A stretch of 12,724 nt of DNA. Origin: an archaeon (GTDB lineage: Archaea > Nanobdellota > Nanobdellia > Woesearchaeales > GW2011-AR9). Location: positions 1-12,724 of the forward strand of contig JAHFRS010000010.1 of the NCBI GenBank assembly GCA_023266155.1, in the 5' to 3' direction. Each line of letters opens with the position of its first letter. The stretch's first letter is position 1. Made by a program: the position numbers and the translations under genes. This document shows, piece after piece, positions 5,674-6,827 of this stretch. The notes below the pieces were generated by a model. The model did no database searches. It saw only the letters and a list, made by a program, of their open reading frames with translations, and had not been told where the DNA came from.

Positions 5674-6276
5674 ATGGCCGAACAAGAAACTTTATTAATC
5701 GACTCAAACGAGTACCTTAAATCCGGCATTCATATCGGCACTAAATTCAAGACTAAGTATATGGCTGAATTCATTTACAAGACTCGGCCTGATGGACTGA
5801 GTGTTCTCAATCTTAAAAAAGTCGATGAGCGGATCGGCTGTGCTGCGATGATGTTAGCTCAATACAATTCAGACGAGATTCTGATCGTCAGTAGAAGAGA
5901 AAACGGCTGGAAAGGCCTGCGTAAACTCCATGAATTGACGGGGATAAAAGTGATAATCGGCCGCTATCCCCCTGGTATTCTCACGAATCCTAACCTGGAA
6001 ACGTTTACGGAACCTAAAATCATCATGGTCTGTGACCCCTGGCCTGACAAAAATGCGGTTGATGATGCGGCGATTATCGGCATTCCCGTGATCGCTTTAT
6101 GTGACACCAACAACCAAGCTAATAATCTTGATTTAGTGGTGCCTTCCAACAATAAAGGAAAAAAATCGGTGGGCTTAGTCTTCTATCTCATCGCCCGTGA
6201 ATGGATGAAAAAGAAAGGCTTGATCCAAAATAATGAAGAGTTTACCGGTAAATTGGACGAGTTTGTGGAAGAATAG
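5674..6276 (+). CDS. rps2: Small-subunit ribosomal protein S2 (uS2), archaeal type
   Basis: A 200-residue component of the 30S subunit, the usual size for archaeal S2. Conserved stretches in order are YLKSGIHIGTKFKTKYM (residues 14-30), LNLKKVDERI, the segment GRYPPGILTNP, the phosphate-loop-like region MVCDPWPDKNAVDDAAIIGIP, and LCDTNNQANNLDLVVPSNNKG, followed by an archaeal-type C-terminal helix (LVFYLIAREWMKKKG). The start is fixed by the strong upstream Shine-Dalgarno. It stops in TAG, so TAG is used as a normal stop here. The tRNA gene ends 28 bases upstream, so both may be processed from one transcript. The next gene begins 5 bases after the stop. Confidence 0.97.
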   Translation: MAEQETLLIDSNEYLKSGIHIGTKFKTKYMAEFIYKTRPDGLSVLNLKKVDERIGCAAMMLAQYNSDEILIVSRRENGWKGLRKLHELTGIKVIIGRYPPGILTNPNLETFTEPKIIMVCDPWPDKNAVDDAAIIGIPVIALCDTNNQANNLDLVVPSNNKGKKSVGLVFYLIAREWMKKKGLIQNNEEFTGKLDEFVEE

Positions 6277-6327
6277 TCTTCATGGTTGTTCATTTAAACA
6301 TTAAAGAACTGGTAGACAGGTATATTG

Positions 6328-6335
6328 AAGAAATT
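6328..6335. repeat. Left target-site duplication of the MITE
   Basis: AAGAAATT is directly repeated at 6465-6472, immediately flanking the 129-bp element on both sides. Only one copy is needed for the host gene to read through in frame. Confidence 0.88.
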
Positions 6336-6464
6336 GTATTTGTTTAGCACCATAAGGTCGAAATCCTGCGATATCACGTCGAGAGCTGCGCGGGGGACGC
6401 CCCCTACGGGGAAGCAGCTCTCTCGATAACTACTGCGAGGATTTCGAAGGTGCTAAACAAATAC
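6336..6464 (+). mobile_element. 129-bp MITE with 16-bp perfect terminal inverted repeats
   Basis: The ends GTATTTGTTTAGCACC (6336-6351) and GGTGCTAAACAAATAC (6449-6464) are perfect inverted repeats of 16 bases. Inside, TCGAAATCC (6358-6366) pairs with GGATTTCGA (6439-6447). TCGAGAGCTGC (6379-6389) pairs with GCAGCTCTCTCGA (6414-6426) apart from a two-base insertion. A GC-rich core includes GGGGG-ACG-CCCCC. The whole element can fold into one long hairpin and has no coding capacity. It is flanked by an 8-base duplication, AAGAAATT. These are the marks of a non-autonomous miniature inverted-repeat element moved by a transposase elsewhere in the genome. The mobilising family cannot be named from this sequence alone. 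Confidence 0.9.
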
Positions 6465-6472
6465 AAGAAATT
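6465..6472. repeat. Right target-site duplication of the MITE
   Basis: This is the second copy of AAGAAATT, joined to the right end of the element and continuing into the host reading frame at TAT 6473. Confidence 0.88.
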
Positions 6473-6827
6473 TATATCGACGATGTGGATTATGTTCCTT
6501 GGAATGATGCCACGCACGATTGTGCCTATCTATCGCTGGATGTCCCCAGGGTGTTCTTAGATGACTATTTGGTCTTGCAAGGTCAGAAAAATAAAAAATG
6601 GCCTGATGGAATAGAATTATGGAACACGACTGAGTTACGAGAACGATTAAAAGGGAAGAAACCTCGAAAGTTTCATGCACCGTTAAGTGACATTCTCGAA
6701 TTTTTAGGAGGGAGAGTTCAAGTAGACTATTATGATTATTCTGGAGTGAGAATTGGAATAGGCATTACCGAATTTCCACGGGAATTTGATCCTGAATAAC
6801 TGAAAAACAATCATCTCTTCCACAATC

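Follow-up and report, generated by a model that had tools for sequence, protein, structure and literature searches.

A palindromic MITE family of Woesearchaeota with a probable IS66-family partner, and a gene split by one of its copies

The DNA analysed here (12,724 nucleotides, referred to as the window) is located on contig 11 of a Woesearchaeota genome assembly of 1.19 Mb in 186 contigs, which is 82.7% complete and 5.6% contaminated. It contains a 129-bp MITE that interrupts a short gene. We consider it highly probable (about 0.88), from shared ends and duplication lengths, that this MITE represents a palindromic, non-autonomous Woesearchaeota family that is moved in trans by an IS66-family transposase, which would recognise the 13-bp end GTATTTGTTTAGC and make 8-bp staggered cuts. 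We infer that this transposase also acted on the window copy.

The element and the gene it interrupts

The MITE occupies positions 6336–6464 (129 bp, no strand assigned) and is flanked on the forward strand by two copies of the 8-bp target duplication AAGAAATT (positions 6328–6335 and 6465–6472); together with one duplicate it measures 137 bp. The left terminal inverted repeat, GTATTTGTTTAGCACC (positions 6336–6351, forward strand), of which the first 13 bases are common to IS66-family elements, is matched perfectly by the right one, GGTGCTAAACAAATAC (positions 6449–6464, forward strand). The perfect inverted repeat continues for two bases into the duplication, giving 18 bp in total (6334–6351 with 6449–6466), while the best of 300 mononucleotide shuffles reached 11. 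Further inwards, two forward-strand arms of 10 bp (positions 6358–6367, overlapping helix 2 of the family alignment, and 6438–6447) form an inner stem, followed by a central hairpin, the G+C-rich core (positions 6381–6422, forward strand), closed by a 9-bp inverted repeat (6381–6389 with 6414–6422). Folded as DNA, the element reaches −41.7 kcal/mol, whereas 200 dinucleotide shuffles average −15.5 kcal/mol (z −9.4). A first-pass annotation, made from the window alone, had described a 129-bp MITE with perfect 16-bp inverted ends, inner repeats and an 8-bp duplication, and all its boundaries are confirmed.

The element at 6336–6464 is a real MITE with exact boundaries. It has perfect 16-bp terminal inverted repeats, is short, contains no transposase gene and is present in multiple copies. 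Its target-site duplication has a fixed length of 8 bp, found with at most one mismatch in 82 of the 102 family end pairs among the matches listed, and its ends are common to an autonomous element, with 13 bp identical to those of three IS66-family elements (L306–L308, described below).

The interrupted gene starts with the ATG at position 6282, downstream of the ribosomal protein S2 gene (rps2, positions 5674–6276, forward strand), and is broken after codon 18. Its 5' piece (positions 6282–6347, forward strand) translates as MVVHLNIKELVDRYIEEI, ending in EEI, and then runs into the left end of the MITE, which contributes VFV and an in-frame stop at 6345–6347 (GTA TTT GTT TAG). The 3' piece (positions 6473–6799, forward strand) is open from the GTG at 6485 to its stop. 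With a stop after 21 codons, the insertion would abolish the 126-amino-acid product; any translation of the 3' half would need an internal start, for example GTG 6485. No Pfam family was found for the gene, and the predicted structure of one homologue (P0002, mean pLDDT 83.8) gave no PDB match at an E-value of 0.001 or better.

As first annotated, removal of 137 bases restores a frame of 126 amino acids with a single, terminal stop. The annotation had taken this repair as independent proof of the insertion boundaries; the repair is real, but by itself it is weak, as it would occur by chance about one time in three before stops are counted. Stronger proof is, on comparative grounds, provided by intact relatives. 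Five homologues of the downstream half were found (P0001–P0005), four of which (P0002–P0005, 123–130 amino acids) continue across the joint without an insert; the annotation had proposed looking for orthologs of this kind. Aligned with P0003 over 126 positions, the rejoined frame shows 84% identity and needs no gap where the two halves meet. The remaining homologue, P0001 (a cluster of two sequences), has 104 amino acids, begins at the downstream GTG and differs by one residue from the 104-amino-acid frame of the window, a start that suggests that another strain carries the same split. A further intact relative, in genome G022, is an open frame of 125 codons with 48% identity. The gene is sparse, being present in two of 60 genomes (the window's own genome and G022) and not found in G001, a genome of the same genus; because of this, an empty syntenic site in a sister genome is not demonstrable.

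Copies, length variants and insertion sites

Further copies of the 16-bp ends, for which the first-pass annotation had suggested a search, occur both in the own genome and in related genomes. In the own genome the 18-bp end is found at 43 places with up to three mismatches (3 for a reversed control), and the exact 13-mer GTATTTGTTTAGC at 38 (17 + 21), compared with none for the reversed control pattern. The stretches examined hold 18 complete copies of 120–202 bp, 14 of them with 8-bp duplications of at most one mismatch; of the four lacking a good duplication, one shows a 7-base near-duplication. Unpaired ends also occur. The window copy is 47–88% identical to the 17 others, the best value being 87.6%, so that the MITE family is diverged and not young, with no fresh burst. 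The annotation had proposed a recent event here: the perfect duplicates and ends and the open downstream half agree with this, while the 87.6% identity of the closest own-genome copy does not.

The family is also carried by other Woesearchaeota assemblies. Of 145 genomes sampled as relatives, 16 contain the 16-mer with at most one mismatch, in some cases as a single end that could be a chance match, and a scan of contigs returned at least 105 stretches containing it. The matches listed comprise 102 distinct end pairs of 90–320 bp, a few of them chance pairs, counted over loci from whole genomes and genome contigs with viral loci left out. Duplications are perfect in 59 of these, carry one mismatch in 23 and are worse in 20 (among the matches listed), and 70 have a length of 129–134 bp. 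Matches in unrelated bacteria, among those listed and inspected, are unpaired ends that look like chance. In 80 of the 84 viral stretches with the 16-mer, which were screened, no end pair 60–6000 bp apart had a matching 8-bp flank. An assembly chimera or misjoin, for which the fragmentation of the assembly into 186 contigs leaves some room, is exceedingly improbable, since the 8-bp duplications are clean both here and at dozens of further sites spread over several independent assemblies.

Copies are mostly located outside genes. When the 82 copies with good duplications are excised, the rejoined site is inside a frame of at least 150 amino acids in 17, compared with 77% of 1,795 positions drawn at random from these loci, and is crossed by a frame of at least 100 amino acids in 30, compared with 88% of random positions. 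Insertion within a gene is an exception, though not a rare one.

Several variants of the element were observed. In nine loci of the Woesearchaeota assemblies JACPII and JACPBU (L179, L196, L212, L222, L229, L230, L250, L255 and L272) the G+C-rich core is lengthened by one, two or three additional hairpin units, each about 33 bp long, forming a length ladder of approximately 132, 165, 199 and 231 bp. These units have a common scaffold, with stems that differ and are mostly self-complementary; the L255 contig begins inside a tandem array of them, and the same units are present in the core of an apparently different palindromic element (L180, position 433, and L267, position 5154). Three 190-bp copies (L005, L028 and L065) have other inserted hairpins with unrelated stems. 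Two elements of 252 and 258 bp (L071 and L081, from G105) have GTATTTGTTTAGC ends, 8-bp duplications and an unrelated interior; one end of L081 has a changed base and the duplication of L071 one mismatch. To judge from the sequences, they constitute a further non-autonomous family that uses these ends. At L076 (near position 1501, contig 10 of G021), a lone MITE-like end supplies the ATG that opens a kinase-like frame (MLNKYKVIAITGTPGTGKS, identified by eye), possibly a co-opted start codon.

A probable IS66-family partner element

In two genomes (G009 and G078), remnants of a transposase carboxy-terminus end directly inside GCTAAACAAATAC; these remnants pointed to IS66. Seven of the eight ends in G078 have a contig end no more than 100 bases away, the pattern that recent multiplication of a longer repeat would produce; one of them translates into an apparent IS66 carboxy-terminus (by eye). 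Among ten genomes chosen for carrying such ends, PF03050 matched in five, four of them over the cut-off. IS66-family elements of 1.57–1.59 kb with the same 13-base ends occur in the same order. L307 (G111, 1565 bp) and L308 (G063, 1594 bp) have GTATTTGTTTAGC ends and are flanked on both sides by CATAATAT and ACAAAAAT, respectively, which are exact 8-bp duplications. L306 (1590 bp), from the MITE-rich genome G039, has GTATTTGTTTAGC ends and one frame of 450 amino acids; its right end coincides with the contig end, where the right duplication is unreadable. A transposase sharing both the ends and the 8-bp duplication length, which the first-pass annotation had proposed to look for, exists in relatives (L307 and L308); searches of the own genome yielded none.

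The G039 protein scores 223.3 bits against the NF033517 IS66 transposase model (cut-off 180) and 113.6 against PF03050 (cut-off 23.1). In an alignment of four transposase sequences, Asp231, Asp281 and Glu395 are invariant, and we take these to be the catalytic triad of the IS66-family transposase. In the 1590-bp element L300, no long plausible frame other than that of the 450-amino-acid transposase lies between the ends, and the accessory genes tnpA and tnpB of the classical IS66 group are absent there. Single-gene IS66 members are known, and the partner element presumably belongs with these, as in the ISBst12 group. It resembles the IS66 family in its transposase, which is over both the NCBIfam and the Pfam cut-offs, in its 8-bp target duplications and in its GTA-starting ends. 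An excerpt of PMC3281130 has a table of two Paracoccus IS66 elements with a figure of 8 in a column taken as the duplication length. According to the same excerpt, multi-ORF structures are typical of IS66, unlike the single long frame in about 1.59 kb of the partner element; the end it shares is 13 bp long, compared with 22/20 and 35/26 in the two Paracoccus elements (PMC3281130, excerpt).

A protein search of 352 genomes of the order gave matches in 32, and 30 loci were compared. Where the protein is at least 54% identical to the G039 transposase, the 13-bp end is present in eight of nine loci (seven exact, one with one mismatch); the exception, L309, is a partial copy with a stop, adjoins a contig end and has no 13-bp end. 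Where the identity is 37% or less, none of 21 loci, several of them cut by contig ends that may hide one of their termini, has the exact 13-bp end, and four (L310, L323, L329 and L332) have other GTA-starting ends with 8-bp duplications of their own. Across these loci the end sequence thus appears to follow transposase relatedness, the 13-bp end being, as far as they indicate, particular to one transposase clade. In a sample of 371 genomes drawn evenly from the phylum there were 14 matches at an E-value of 1e-40; the three from outside the order are at most 35% identical, so that within this sample the clade appears confined to the order.

No IS66 transposase was detected in the own genome, 82.7% complete and in 186 contigs, by PF03050 (E 0.01) or by protein search (E 1e-20), nor by either method in the incomplete same-genus genome G001. 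Two MITE carriers, G021 and G026, have IS66 proteins around which no such end was found within two mismatches; those of G021 are only 28–33% identical. The MITE and the IS66 element have only the 13 end bases in common and differ in their interiors, so that simple deletion within a known copy does not account for the MITE. A 582-bp derivative of the IS66-family element (L311 of G258, positions 1349–1930) keeps the start of the transposase between GAAAGATT 8-bp duplicates and has one exact and one damaged end; it is possibly a step from the full element toward a MITE.

Transposases of several families yield 8-bp duplications, and with no IS66 copy found in the own genome the MITE might be moved by another DDE transposase (for instance of the IS1595, ISL3 or IS256 type), the match to the IS66 ends being a coincidence or convergence. 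This is improbable in view of the exact 13-bp identity at both ends and the matching duplication length in two IS66-family elements; the link of the ends to one transposase clade also makes chance unlikely.

Searches for other transposases covered IS1595, ISL3 and IS256 in ten genomes and Y1 in the own genome, and none of these four families yielded an element carrying the MITE ends. IS1595 (PF12762) was over the cut-off in none of the ten, with one weak match in G016; ISL3 (PF01610) was over it in one, as a 151-codon frame of G078 with no such end (two mismatches allowed) in the surrounding 5.5 kb; IS256 (PF00872) was over it in none, with one weak match in G078 and no such end nearby; and Y1 (PF01797) had no match in the own genome, the only one searched.

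Covarying arms and relation to known elements

For analysis of the arms, 59 distinct copies of 128–134 bp were aligned; 63 of the 102 pairs among the matches listed had passed a filter on length and duplication. In the fold-back structure of these 59 copies, 98.4% of the cells are standard pairs. Two-sided changes affect 12 pairs (shuffled mean 8.6) and 164 cells, compared with 50.4 in shuffles (s.d. 5.3) and 4–25 in slid controls, in a test where the structure was derived from the same alignment, which favours it over its slid versions, and where kinship among copies inflates cell counts. Further standard pair types number 30 and do not exceed expectation: the shuffles give 31.5, and 490 of 500 equal or exceed the observed number.

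Counting as rare the variants present in fewer than three copies, and counting states, which are not independent events, the ratio of one-sided to two-sided variants in the outer two helices is 14:3 for rare and 1:6 for shared ones (Fisher p 0.004). It is 16:3 and 3:6 in the inner helices (p 0.013), and 30:6 and 4:12 over all helices (p 0.00009). This suggests one-sided decay of copies once they have inserted, the ones that spread being those with complementary arms. A count of independent arm switches on a tree for which only unpaired columns were used (for example 8 changes on either side at pair 15–124) is rough, depends on few noisy columns and is given no weight. Folding during transposition, template switching between the arms or RNA selection may have produced the arm pattern.

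The very stable fold and the strong two-sided covariation over the 59 copies are what would be seen if the element were a regulatory hairpin, or a gene for a structured RNA, lying by chance inside the split gene. The many G-U cells of the inner helix, with 21 U-G cells at one pair, point in the same direction and call for caution about RNA. The outer arms differ: of their 1416 cells, 84 are Watson-Crick pairs changed on both sides, compared with 9 G-U and 9 unpaired cells, and this excess of 84 over 9 disfavours RNA selection and fits a symmetry at the DNA level better. Nothing in the window reaches an Rfam gathering score, the 8-bp duplications are at varied sites and the gene is intact in relatives, all of which makes an RNA origin very improbable.

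For a MITE moved in trans, we infer that amplifying copies are those that keep their arms complementary, perhaps because folding joins the ends of a 130-bp element. A more specific proposal, which we regard as tentative and rather unlikely, is that transposition depends on the palindrome, the arms extruding and bringing the 13-bp ends together so that only copies with complementary arms multiply. By forming an extruded hairpin or cruciform, complementary arms would then enable a transposase that reads only 13 bp at each end to use a 130-bp element. Shared variants would be two-sided and later decay one-sided, since only complementary-arm copies would multiply, and nested hairpin units of about 33 bp in the core would be tolerated because the fold is kept.

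The palindromic repeats of bacteria known as ERIC, nemis and Correia elements also fold back over much of their length, like the MITE described here, and differ from it in their ends and duplications as generally described. The first-pass annotation called well-defined MITEs uncommon in archaea with short genes, but MITEs have already been described from Sulfolobus, Halobacterium, Haloquadratum and Desulfurococcus (PMC10969869, excerpt). The element is like these in general MITE features: it is short, has terminal inverted repeats and target duplications and would be mobilised in trans. No description of an IS66-related archaeal MITE was found in the excerpts of open-licence literature searched. 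The kind of element is thus known, and what is newly added is the family, its IS66 partner and the covarying arms.

The result links an apparently undescribed MITE family of the Woesearchaeota, an archaeal group known mainly through environmental assemblies, to one specific family of transposases, IS66. It shows that the small genomes of these organisms carry gene-breaking mobile DNA, and the arm-by-arm covariation makes it testable whether a very short transposon must fold to jump.
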